Below, in pieces: positions 58,769 through 62,140 of a stretch of 64,000 nt of DNA (within the stretch, counting starts at the first letter, position 1; each line of letters begins with the position of its first letter). Made by a program: the position numbers and the translations under genes. The notes beneath the pieces were generated by a model. The model was given only the letters and a program-made list of their open reading frames with translations, was not told the DNA's origin and ran no database searches. Source of the DNA: Flavobacteriaceae bacterium (GTDB lineage Bacteria > Bacteroidota > Bacteroidia > Flavobacteriales > Flavobacteriaceae); NCBI GenBank assembly GCA_024640565.1, contig JAHEET010000002.1, forward strand, positions 186,001 through 250,000, written 5' to 3'.

Positions 58769-61700
58769 ATGCAATACAATCATAAGGAGATCGAAGAGAA
58801 TTGGCAAAAATTTTGGGCAGACAACCAAACATTTAAAGCTACAAATCCTGCCCAGAGCTCTGACCAAGGAGATGCTGATAAACCTAAATATTATGTATTG
58901 GACATGTTTCCATACCCTTCAGGAGCAGGCCTGCATGTTGGACATCCTTTAGGATATATTGCAAGTGATATTTATGCGCGTTACAAGCGGCATAAAGGGT
59001 TTAATGTATTGCATCCCCAAGGATATGATTCTTTCGGTTTGCCAGCAGAACAATATGCTATTCAAACAGGGCAGCACCCTGCAAAAACTACCGAAGCAAA
59101 CATTACAACCTACCGAAAACAACTAGATAAAATTGGCTTTTCATTTGATTGGTCTCGAGAAGTAAGAACTTCAGATCCGGCATATTACAAATGGACACAG
59201 TGGATTTTCATTCAACTCTTTAATTCTTGGTACAATAAAGACACCGACAAAGCAGAGGACATTGCTACTTTGATTTCTATCTTTAAAAAGGAAGGTAACA
59301 CAACTGTAAATGCCGCTGCAGATGCAGAAACAAAACCTTTTTCGTCGGAAGCTTGGAAAGCATTTTCAAAGACAGAGCAAGAAGCGATCTTATTGCAATA
59401 CCGATTGACCTATTTATCAGACACTGAAGTAAACTGGTGTCCGATTTTAGGAACGGTCTTGGCAAATGATGAAATTGTAAATGGTGTTTCAGAAAGAGGA
59501 GGTCATCCCGTTGTTCGTAAAAAGATGACCCAATGGTCCATGCGAATTTCTGCGTATGCACAACGGTTGTTAGACGGTTTAGAAAAAATAGACTGGCCAC
59601 AGCCCTTAAAGGATTCTCAAACCAATTGGATTGGACGTTCTCAGGGAGCCATGGTTTCTTTTGATGTCGATGGAGAAACTCATAAAGGAAGTACAGATGT
59701 CAAATTATCCTACAAAGAACTGGAAGCGTTAAAAGAATTGCGTTCGAATTTGTCGAAGGCAGAAGGAATGCTTTGGGGTGAATTAAAAAATAAAAAAGGA
59801 GCAGCAAAATTCAGAAAAAAATATACCATTGGAACATTTTTAGTAGATTATGTCTGTTTGGCAAAAAATACGATTGTAGAATTTTCTGGAAAAGAAGATG
59901 AAGCAGCAAGAACCGCCTTTTTTGCAAAAGAAGGATTCAATGTACTGCGTGTAACTAATGAAGAAGTAACTGAAAGTGTTTTGAAAGTGGTTGCTAAGAT
60001 CAACAATGCATTGCAGTTTCCGACCGTTGTAAAAGTTGAAAAACCAACAGTAAACTTAAAAAGTACAGCCTATAAAATTGACGTTTTTACAACAAGGCCG
60101 GACACCATTTTTGGTGTTTCATTTATGACATTAGCACCAGAGCATCCGTTGGTTTCAAAGATTGTAACGGCCGGTCAAAAAAAGGCTGTAGACGCCTACA
60201 TTACAGCAACAGCAAAGCGTTCTGAACGCGAAAGAATGGCAGATGTAAAAACCATTTCAGGAGTTTTTACAGGCGCCTATGCATTGCACCCTTTTACGGG
60301 AGAAAAAGTGCAAATATGGATTGGCGACTACGTTTTAGCAAATTATGGAACAGGTGCTGTAATGGCAGTTCCGTGTGGAGATCAAAGAGATTATGATTTT
60401 GCAAAACACTTTGGCATTGCCATTCCAAATATTTTTGAAGGGATTGATATTTCTGAAGCAGCACATACAGGTAAGGAAGGAATCACAATTGCAAACTCCG
60501 ATTTCTTATCAGGATTAAAACATAAGAAAGCCCTAAAATTAGCCATTTTTGAAATGGAAAAACGCGGAGTTGGGTATGGTAAAATTAATTACCGTTTGCG
60601 AGATGCAGTCTTCAGTAGACAGCGTTATTGGGGCGAACCTTTTCCCGTTTATTATAAAGACGGAATGCCTCAAATGATTGATGAAAAATATTTGCCAATT
60701 GAATTGCCAGCAGTAGAAAAATACCTTCCTACTGAAGCGGGCGAACCGCCATTAGGAAGAGCAACAAGCTGGGCTTGGGATTCGCGCGGAAAGAAAGTAG
60801 TTTCCAATGAGAAACTAAAAAATAAAACCGTATTTTCTTTAGAATTAAACACCATGCCAGGTTGGGCAGGAAGTTCTTGGTATTTTAACCGATATATGGA
60901 TGCTAACAATCAAGGGACATTTGCAAGCAAGGAGTCTTTGGAATATTGGAAAGAAGTCGATCTATACATTGGCGGGTCGGAGCACGCAACCGGACATTTA
61001 TTATACGCTCGTTTCTGGCAAAAATTCTTATTTGATAAAGGAATTGTTCCCGTAGATGAGTTTGCAAAAAAACTAATCAATCAAGGAATGATTTTAGGAA
61101 CTTCTGCATTTGTATACAGGGCAACTGCTTTTGTGAAAAACGGATGTGATGTTGATAAATCCAACGATGCTGTTTTAGCGAAAATCCCAACCCTATTTGT
61201 TTCCAAAAACAACTTTAGTTCAGATGCTGAATTTGAAACGGTTGTTAAAAATTACTTATTAGACAAAGGATACTTAAATCCGAATTTTGCCGATTTGGTA
61301 ATGATTACCAATACACCATTACACGCAGATGTTTCTTTGGTAAACTCATCGGATGAATTGGACGTTGAAGCATTTAAGAAACAATCAATAAATCAAGATT
61401 ATAAAAAAGCAATATTCCTTTTGAAAGACGGGAAGTATGTGGTTGGTAGAGAAGTGGAAAAAATGTCTAAATCTAAATACAACGTTGTCAATCCCGATGA
61501 TATTGTCGAAGAATATGGCGCCGATGCATTGCGTTTGTTTGAAATGTTTTTAGGTCCTTTAGATCAAGCGAAACCTTGGAAAACCTCAGGTATTTCGGGT
61601 GTGTACTCTTTCCTAAAGAAGTTATGGAAATTATATATTGACGAAAATGGCGTTGCAGTTTCTGACGAAAAAGCGACCAAAGAAGAATTAAAAACACTGC

Positions 61701-62140
61701 ACAAAACCATTAAGAAAGTAGCAGAAGATATTGAGAATTTCTCTTTCAACACCTCTGTTGCTACCTTCATGATTGCTGTCAATGAACTGACTGCTTTAAA
61801 GTGCCATAAAAAAGAAATTTTAGGGCCATTTTTGGTGTTACTATCACCATATGCACCTCATATTACAGAAGAACTATGGAGTAAATTGGGCAATAAGAAA
61901 AGTATTTCAACAGTGGAGTTTCCTATTTTTGAACCAAAATATTTAATAGAAAGCGCGAAGAAGTACCCAATTTCATTCAATGGGAAAATGCGTTTTACTT
62001 TAGAATTACCTTTGGATTTTTCAAAAGATGAAATAGAAGCTGCGGTTTTAGCAGATGAAAAAACAATTGCGCAATTGGCAGGAGTTGCTCCTAAGAAAGT
62101 GATTATCGTTCCTGGAAAAATTGTTAATATTGTTCACTAG
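58769..62140 (+). CDS. leuS: Leucyl-tRNA synthetase with an inserted DUF559 domain
   Basis: A 1123-residue class I synthetase, far above the 860 residues of E. coli LeuRS. HIGH is at 56-59 (HVGH in PYPSGAGLHVGHP) and KMSKS at 898-902. The CP1 editing domain is intact: the threonine-rich TTRPDTIFG (about 441-449) and the editing Asp region GTGAVMAVPCGDQRDYDFA are present. Three insertions explain the length: a Bacteroidota-type helical one near 155-205, a DUF559 domain at about 311-415 at the very start of CP1, and a Bacteroidota-type segment of about 100 residues before KMSKS. The frame is continuous, so the insert is translated as part of the enzyme. It has its own promoter and terminator. 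Confidence 0.96.
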   Translation: MQYNHKEIEENWQKFWADNQTFKATNPAQSSDQGDADKPKYYVLDMFPYPSGAGLHVGHPLGYIASDIYARYKRHKGFNVLHPQGYDSFGLPAEQYAIQTGQHPAKTTEANITTYRKQLDKIGFSFDWSREVRTSDPAYYKWTQWIFIQLFNSWYNKDTDKAEDIATLISIFKKEGNTTVNAAADAETKPFSSEAWKAFSKTEQEAILLQYRLTYLSDTEVNWCPILGTVLANDEIVNGVSERGGHPVVRKKMTQWSMRISAYAQRLLDGLEKIDWPQPLKDSQTNWIGRSQGAMVSFDVDGETHKGSTDVKLSYKELEALKELRSNLSKAEGMLWGELKNKKGAAKFRKKYTIGTFLVDYVCLAKNTIVEFSGKEDEAARTAFFAKEGFNVLRVTNEEVTESVLKVVAKINNALQFPTVVKVEKPTVNLKSTAYKIDVFTTRPDTIFGVSFMTLAPEHPLVSKIVTAGQKKAVDAYITATAKRSERERMADVKTISGVFTGAYALHPFTGEKVQIWIGDYVLANYGTGAVMAVPCGDQRDYDFAKHFGIAIPNIFEGIDISEAAHTGKEGITIANSDFLSGLKHKKALKLAIFEMEKRGVGYGKINYRLRDAVFSRQRYWGEPFPVYYKDGMPQMIDEKYLPIELPAVEKYLPTEAGEPPLGRATSWAWDSRGKKVVSNEKLKNKTVFSLELNTMPGWAGSSWYFNRYMDANNQGTFASKESLEYWKEVDLYIGGSEHATGHLLYARFWQKFLFDKGIVPVDEFAKKLINQGMILGTSAFVYRATAFVKNGCDVDKSNDAVLAKIPTLFVSKNNFSSDAEFETVVKNYLLDKGYLNPNFADLVMITNTPLHADVSLVNSSDELDVEAFKKQSINQDYKKAIFLLKDGKYVVGREVEKMSKSKYNVVNPDDIVEEYGADALRLFEMFLGPLDQAKPWKTSGISGVYSFLKKLWKLYIDENGVAVSDEKATKEELKTLHKTIKKVAEDIENFSFNTSVATFMIAVNELTALKCHKKEILGPFLVLLSPYAPHITEELWSKLGNKKSISTVEFPIFEPKYLIESAKKYPISFNGKMRFTLELPLDFSKDEIEAAVLADEKTIAQLAGVAPKKVIIVPGKIVNIVH
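59675..60058 (+). other. DUF559 (Vsr-like endonuclease fold) domain inserted in LeuRS
   Basis: LeuRS residues about 303-430. The match to DUF559 is clear along its length: LKELRSNLSKAEGMLWGELK (helices), KFRKKYTIGTFLVDYVCL, IVEFSGKEDEAARTAFFAKEG and FNVLRVTNEEVTESVLKVV. The first acidic position of the nuclease fold (Asp360 in VDY) and the next strand Glu371 are kept. The usual following EVDGGQH pattern has become EFSGKED, losing an Asp and the His, so catalysis is uncertain. The flanks GAMVSFDVDG and AYKIDVFTTR are the two strands of a normal LeuRS hairpin, so the domain sits in a loop. Confidence 0.85.

Follow-up and report, generated by a model that had tools for sequence, protein, structure and literature searches.

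The leuS gene within a 64,000-nucleotide stretch of the genome of a marine Flavobacteriaceae bacterium (the whole of this stretch is termed the window) encodes a leucyl-tRNA synthetase (LeuRS) carrying an in-frame insert with a nuclease-fold domain of the DUF559 family. With a probability of about 0.7, this insert represents the immobilised, catalytically altered descendant of a mobile nuclease element of Bacteroidota, which has ends resembling repetitive extragenic palindromes (REP), inserts in frame and is tolerated unspliced. The sequences compared point to this origin by unit boundaries within one gene, the ends themselves, intact active-site residues in relatives, many hosts and sites, dispersed end-only copies and a coupling between active site and ends. 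The REP-like ends and the other host proteins lay beyond what the window alone shows.

The leuS product comprises 1123 amino acids (58769..62140, forward strand as all features below; open reading frame and profile matches). The entire inserted stretch (59675..60073, approximately residues 303–435) lies in the hairpin preceding the TTRPDT motif and is missing from empty LeuRS of the same genus, in which this hairpin consists of 16 residues (..MVSFDVDG / KIDVFTTRPDT..). Residues 320–415 (59726..60013) match the DUF559 profile PF04480 with 61.5 bits (E 8.4e-17; curated cut-off 20.6), and a second search placed the domain identically. It has a Vsr-like fold, which is also that of the catalytic domain of EDxHD homing endonucleases and of I-Bth0305I. 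An earlier, sequence-only reading of the window had claimed a DUF559 domain in frame at this very hairpin, with the EVDGGQH motif altered and without intein splicing. The two checks it had proposed for the domain, a Vsr fold and a significant profile hit, both came out in its favour, and no intein or Hint family was found among the Pfam matches to leuS at E ≤ 1.

The alteration of the motif is confirmed by comparison with intact relatives. The active-site set, here taken to be E, D, E, D and H, is incomplete in the window copy: only E332 of the TxAE motif (59762..59764, an acidic residue of the Vsr-like site), D360 (VDY; 59846..59848) and E371 (VEF; 59879..59881) are left. The D of EVDGxxH is replaced by S373 (59885..59887), the subsequent GxxH histidine falls into a gap of approximately eight residues, and RQH has changed to KKY, placing Y352 (59822..59824) where most intact relatives have H. 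All 17 domains labelled as window type share these changes. The left (59675..59725) and right (60014..60073) linkers occupy the positions of the REP-like ends of intact relatives, and hairpin searches of the flanks detected none at the window copy. The leader [YW]xTAdPxxYxLLKE is not present at this copy, ETHKGSTDVKLSYKELEAL standing in its place. The genome of the window yielded no REP-like unit with two patterns (an end pattern allowing up to 2 mismatches and a looser hairpin pattern) and no Y1_Tnp match. The window copy is probably immobile.

Structurally the domain is kept, i.e., folded and under purifying selection. The median ratio of nonsynonymous to synonymous substitutions (dN/dS; non-independent pairs) is about 0.25 for window-type inserts versus 0.10 for the editing domain, and active LeuRS inserts show a similar value (0.31). 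A model of the full LeuRS was poor (mean predicted local distance difference test score, pLDDT, 63.6; predicted template modelling score, pTM, 0.36) and was used only for the local order strand–insert–strand; confidence was low at residues 303–318 and 420–433, corresponding to the linkers. The present state of the copy is most likely that of a tolerated fossil under folding constraint, an adopted binding domain ranking second. A further, hypervariable stretch of LeuRS precedes the KMSKS motif (61109–61447, residues 781–893); with nucleotide identity down to 0.39 among genus members, it is possibly another lineage-specific insertion.

Usable LeuRS sequences were obtained from 33 of the 36 genomes searched for the genus of the window (its own included). 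The loop is of window type in 18 of them, carries an insert with intact active site in 4, is empty in 9 and contains other short repeats in 2. On a LeuRS tree built without the insert (45 rows including other genera; L146 and L148 left out), these four states require 13 changes, at least five of them for the window type on supported branches. Window-type inserts nevertheless form one clade; the tree is partly unresolved and compatible with descent within the genus combined with several losses. L013 (intact) and L005 (window type) share 91 % (left) and 87 % (right) nucleotide identity in their LeuRS backbones, while their inserts belong to different lineages (56 % identity). A search with the insert among proteins of 0.55–1.75 times LeuRS length retrieved 545 proteins at E ≤ 0.01; the 120 of them listed have LeuRS domain sets, and most of the named ones belong to Polaribacter and Tenacibaculum. 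The same loop harbours other short repeat-like peptides without DUF559 (VIASETKQSL..PRNDE; DAERSRSDQD) in L025 and L028 (genomes G015 and G028), and a solo REP-like peptide in L031 (G041). It looks like an insertion hotspot.

PF04480 was detected in 143 of the 299 family genomes and in 138 of the 247 making up a phylum sample. The loci analysed were the best-scoring ones of these genome scans rather than a random draw (L102–L129 being outside the analysis). DUF559 units with intact active sites reside in frame within, or at the end of, many larger proteins of Bacteroidota, among them LeuRS (two sites), IleRS, ValRS, MetRS, MetH, RecG, PurL, HisD, HemD, AddA-like helicases and restriction-modification proteins. 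Thus, the same kind of insert in other essential proteins, suggested as a check by the sequence-only reading, exists in numerous hosts. Profiles indicated RecG, MetH, HisD (C-terminal), HemD (N-terminal), the second LeuRS site, a PurL-type amidotransferase (C-terminal), UvrD/AddA-like and RecB-like helicases, methylmalonyl-CoA mutase with MeaB, an M23 peptidase, RNase H (N-terminal), HsdM, HsdR, type ISP, PglX-like and CcrM-like methyltransferases and HutG (C-terminal), the matches of HemD, HutG, PglX-like, CcrM-like and RecB-like hosts lying below the curated cut-off. A class I synthetase likewise indicated by profile was named IleRS in an independent protein search. Such profiles named 19 proteins, the remaining names being assigned by BLAST to those or by short motifs (MetRS and ValRS by motif, ValRS also by source names), with 40 of 189 loci left as "other". 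The best 80 of at least 561 confirmed loci, forming the named set, include IleRS, RecG, MetH, LeuRS and AddA as well as MetRS and ValRS. The independent search with the IleRS insert yielded 1102 proteins at E ≤ 1e-10; among the 120 listed are IleRS, ValRS, RecG and two with a Pfam number that is presumably the one of urocanase (HutU); in L175 a motif leads to the same name.

Several further arrangements were observed. Five proteins with IleRS-type domain sets (P0121–P0125, 907–1439 amino acids, four of them 1408–1439) scored higher in the DUF559 region than the query itself and possibly contain two copies in one enzyme. DUF559 together with REP-like peptides occurs inside restriction-modification proteins (type I, ISP, PglX-like; L130–L134, L137, L138, L147, L150, L151, L153), several with a different leader (LLxNARxLRKNQT). 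Eight short stand-alone genes of Prevotellaceae and other Bacteroidales (L230–L233, L240, L241, L244, L245) have hairpins on both sides without exception, most of them sharing the leader of the in-frame type, and are possibly a free form of the element.

GC-rich hairpins whose 5′ arm consists of pyrimidines border most of the intact in-frame inserts. Hairpins with a stem of at least 5 within 200 nucleotides of the domain were scored in 78 named loci (two of the 80 lacking flanks of 200 nucleotides) and in 64 further loci, with 3 loci in both sets. Among the named loci, 72 have a left, 64 a right and 59 both hairpins; 45 of the 64 further loci have both. Control stretches 900 nucleotides away contained a hairpin in 1 of 146 and 1 of 128 cases, and shuffled sequences in 3 % per side. 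With a stem of at least 6, both hairpins were retained in 44/78 and 33/64 loci and in 14 of the 30 best-scoring loci of the family. The left ends (124) and the reverse complements of the right ends (114) yield in outline one common consensus, GCCCCnCCnAaCCTCCCC-nAA-GGGGAGG (read inward), with the head GCCCCnCCnA; the ends are therefore inverted and REP-like. Translated, they give peptides such as LSPTLSEGKG or LPSGEVGGA. Direct alignment of left versus right flanks gave a weak signal: 12 of 30 pairs exceeded every one of the 50 shuffles, compared with none of 30 controls.

The extent of the unit is apparent from MetH of genome G272, which contains it twice (residues 410–548 and 820–958, 417 bp or 139 codons each). 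The two copies begin with GCCCCCC, finish with GGGGGGGGCT and share 82.5 % nucleotide identity inside but 17–38 % in the flanks, the similarity stopping at the REP-like ends. In the genus, the filled RecG gene of G022 and the empty one of G608 have 98 % protein identity outside the insert; a possible trace of the right end in the empty gene (TGGAAGAGCT vs TGGAGGGGCT) is too short to count. Ends are also dispersed without the nuclease. Among genomes hand-picked from the family genome list, the end pattern (up to 2 mismatches) was found in 10 of 20 DUF559-rich and 2 of 20 DUF559-free ones, with up to 13 copies (G183), and the reversed pattern in none of 41 genomes. Of 27 end units in 20 stretches, 22 lie outside any frame of at least 110 residues and 5 inside; one inverted pair about 43 nucleotides apart resembles a REPIN, and end-only copies occur in frame as well. 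Five stand-alone DUF559 genes (L062, L063, L071, L075, L081) lie beside another type of palindrome (ACCACC.. heads, CTCCTCC/CCCCTCC hairpins; by eye), which gives the impression that each nuclease subfamily has ends of its own.

Domains that conserve the active site tend to conserve the ends as well, and the two tend to be lost jointly. Duplicates included, the set E, D, E, D, H is intact in all active LeuRS (33/33), MetH (23/23), IleRS (14/14), MetRS (7/7) and ValRS (4/4) inserts, the exceptions being found in RecG (2/21), HemD (1/8) and stand-alone proteins (1/18). Among 175 distinct domains (17 of them stand-alone), at least one flanking hairpin accompanies 147 of 154 intact (both hairpins: 113) versus 1 of 21 broken domains; with duplicates (189) the ratios are 159/167 and 1/22. 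Counting the 17 broken domains of the window LeuRS lineage as a single event, four of five broken ones have no hairpin (Fisher 6e-5, rows taken as independent). A poorly resolved domain tree (117 of the 189 rows with a maximum per host, 127 columns) requires 29 host changes, compared with a minimum of 13 and 85 when shuffled, and has the second LeuRS site entered twice from different neighbours (SH-aLRT 98 and 96). A homing-type nuclease settled in a permissive loop without splicing, as the sequence-only reading had proposed, is well supported for the family by the I-Bth0305I fold, the intact active sites of relatives, the many hosts and sites, the REP-like ends and the patchiness within one genus. 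Its suggestion that the window copy itself might still be mobile appears unlikely, considering the loss of the catalytic D and H and of the ends, a genome in which two patterns found no REP-like unit, and a lineage compatible with descent.

Among known systems, the palindromic elements of Rickettsia (RPE) are not known to encode a nuclease. They likewise place palindromic repeats in frame in probably functional proteins and carry a CGTC tag, as stated in excerpts of PMC3733652. REPs can lie in frame in genes including those for tRNA synthetases and recBCD-type repair enzymes (excerpts of PMC6006769 and PMC3733652). The REPtron or REPIN with its REP-associated tyrosine transposase (RAYT, TnpAREP) shares with the present element, judging from the same excerpts, short inverted palindromic ends with a head, dispersed non-coding copies and a nuclease gene in between. 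The enzyme differs, being Vsr-like DUF559 here and of the HuH type in REPtrons; the genome of the window has no Y1_Tnp match, and the window insert matches DUF559 instead. The consensus head is neither GTAG nor CGTC, and GT[AG]G is not found at the foot of the hairpin. Inverted palindromic ends are absent at the window copy but present in most intact relatives. In addition, the nuclease frame lies in frame inside a host protein, and the 417-bp unit occurs twice in one gene, whereas REPtrons, according to PMC6006769, do not seem to move as one piece. EDxHD homing endonucleases such as I-Bth0305I have the same fold and a proposed role in spread to empty sites; those described in excerpts of PMC3943268 are phage-derived with long DNA-binding regions, while the present domain is small, has REP-like ends and putative cleavage activity, and belongs permanently to housekeeping proteins of bacteria. 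Stand-alone DUF559/Vsr-like proteins (3hrl; VsrA of Caulobacter) belong to the same family and fold. They differ in being separate genes, and the excerpted text on VsrA describes neither REP-like ends nor in-frame insertion (PMC12907096). The SOS response of cells that lack a methyltransferase requires VsrA, and a DUF559 protein may thus cause DNA damage in living cells (same excerpt). The open-licence literature searched yielded no description of housekeeping proteins that harbour, in frame, a Vsr-like nuclease bounded by REP-like ends, and that on DUF559/PF04480, judged by listings and beginnings of abstracts, holds no account of these inserts.

The intact element measures approximately 0.4 kb. 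Its inverted REP-like ends, each composed of a GC-rich head and a pyrimidine/purine hairpin, enclose a single uninterrupted reading frame for a short leader (in the main group [YW]xTAdPxxYxLLKE) and the DUF559 nuclease domain (Vsr-like, EDxHD-type). Since the ends are read in frame, entry into a surface loop would add a self-folding domain to the host protein rather than break its gene, so that no splicing would be needed. The nuclease, presumably active, may drive the spread by recognising or cutting the ends or an empty allele; action on its own ends is suggested by the coupling of active site and ends and by the REPtron analogy. In the window lineage, ends and active-site D and H would have been lost, the domain then staying in LeuRS by descent. 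A step further, and with the balance tipping only slightly in favour, these units may constitute a new class of transposable element. A 0.4-kb unit, in which a pair of inverted REP-like ends encloses one Vsr-like frame, would transpose into coding sequence; translated along with an essential protein (four class I tRNA synthetases, MetH, RecG and others), it would be tolerated as an additional domain and hence remain unspliced, with REPIN-like non-coding relatives as non-autonomous forms and broken copies turning into permanent host domains. Such a class could well be separate from the REP/REPtron kind.

Several points weigh against the mobile-element interpretation. Movement of the element and activity of the nuclease are both deduced from sequence comparison. 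Copying within MetH of G272 is old, as synonymous divergence (dS) amounts to about 1.0, and no target-site duplication was recognised at junctions read by eye. The intact inserts of L013, L017 and L022 are no more alike than their LeuRS backbones, giving no sign of recent transfer among active LeuRS inserts of one genus. End units are present in only 10 of the 20 DUF559-rich genomes and also in two DUF559-free ones, and some of them are the elements' own ends. With respect to the coupling, 17 of the 21 broken domains represent one lineage, the other four are assumed to be separate events, the intact rows are related too, and 7 of the 154 intact domains have no hairpin by the rule used. On the domain tree, most host sites form long-standing clusters (one change each for RecG, HemD and window-type LeuRS), a pattern implying that units stay long at a site and that moves are rare.

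The main rival is classical homing. Here the nuclease would cut the uninterrupted allele of its own host gene and enter it through recombinational copying; spread would stay within a site, arrivals at new sites would be accidental, and the ends would be no more than in-frame linkers or older repeats. Against it stand the coincidence of unit edges and REP-like ends in MetH of G272, nuclease-free ends (an inverted pair, solo copies, 22 of 27 outside genes) and the joint loss of hairpins and active site; as sole explanation it is rather unlikely, although homing into empty alleles could act jointly with a REP-ended element. Considerably less probable is that the DUF559 frame is cargo and that a tyrosine (HuH, Y1) transposase mobilises the REP-like ends in the manner of REPtrons. 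In favour of this, TnpAREP/RAYT processes REP units elsewhere, the genes of its subclass 2.4 (Cyanobacteria, Bacteroidetes) themselves contain REPs in frame (excerpts of PMC6006769), and Y1 matches occur in 14 of the 20 DUF559-rich genomes. The other six have no Y1_Tnp match at E ≤ 0.001, yet three of them possess hairpin-bearing HemD units; five Y1 genes were read, and only around one of them did the stretch contain such a hairpin, 635 nucleotides downstream in the same frame; moreover, cargo would not need an active site that is kept jointly with the ends. A Y1 transposase as sole driver was rejected on account of the DUF559-rich genomes without Y1_Tnp and the Y1 genes mostly lacking the hairpin. 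Phage-borne spread was likewise dismissed, as only 2 of 50,697 phage records matched (34–36 % identity); plasmid records with a match numbered 38 of 72,556, all below 60 % identity (15 of the 38 listed). As a separate observation, three Flavobacteriaceae loci, L296 (G183), L300 (G305) and L301 (G132), encode HemF (coproporphyrinogen oxidase, named by eye) preceded in the same frame, of 495–553 amino acids in all, by a Y1 transposase domain of the REP type, which looks like a fixed fusion.

For the window lineage, the sequence-only reading had also considered adoption for tRNA binding or proofreading. Adoption by LeuRS, e.g., as RNA- or tRNA-binding appendage or as stabiliser, has an analogy in the Vsr-like RAP domains, which are thought to bind RNA in mitochondria. 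LeuRS of sister species do without the insert, active inserts evolve at a similar dN/dS (0.31), and folding constraint within an essential protein accounts for the conservation without any function, which leaves adoption doubtful. Strictly vertical accretion of a domain in LeuRS, with no mobile element involved, can draw on the single clade of window-type inserts and its compatibility with descent within the genus. It is hardly credible in view of the patchy states (the LeuRS tree requires 13 changes, and the window type by itself forces no fewer than 5), the many unrelated hosts and the REP-like ends. For the family as a whole, a strictly vertical origin was rejected, being contradicted by LeuRS patchiness, the domain tree and the duplicated unit in MetH of G272.

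Taken together, the findings point to a mobile element, so far undescribed, that resides in proteins unspliced. If true, a selfish nuclease would have one more means of persisting in essential genes beside introns, inteins and intergenic homing genes, namely being a harmless domain. It would assign a concrete role to DUF559, a common nuclease family of little-known function, and account for GC-rich in-frame repeats in proteins of Bacteroidota. One enzyme of one genus would offer a natural series from intact element via broken copy to fixed domain, rendering domestication testable. It would also serve as a warning that a nuclease domain annotated in an enzyme of Bacteroidota may be a parasite rather than a new activity.
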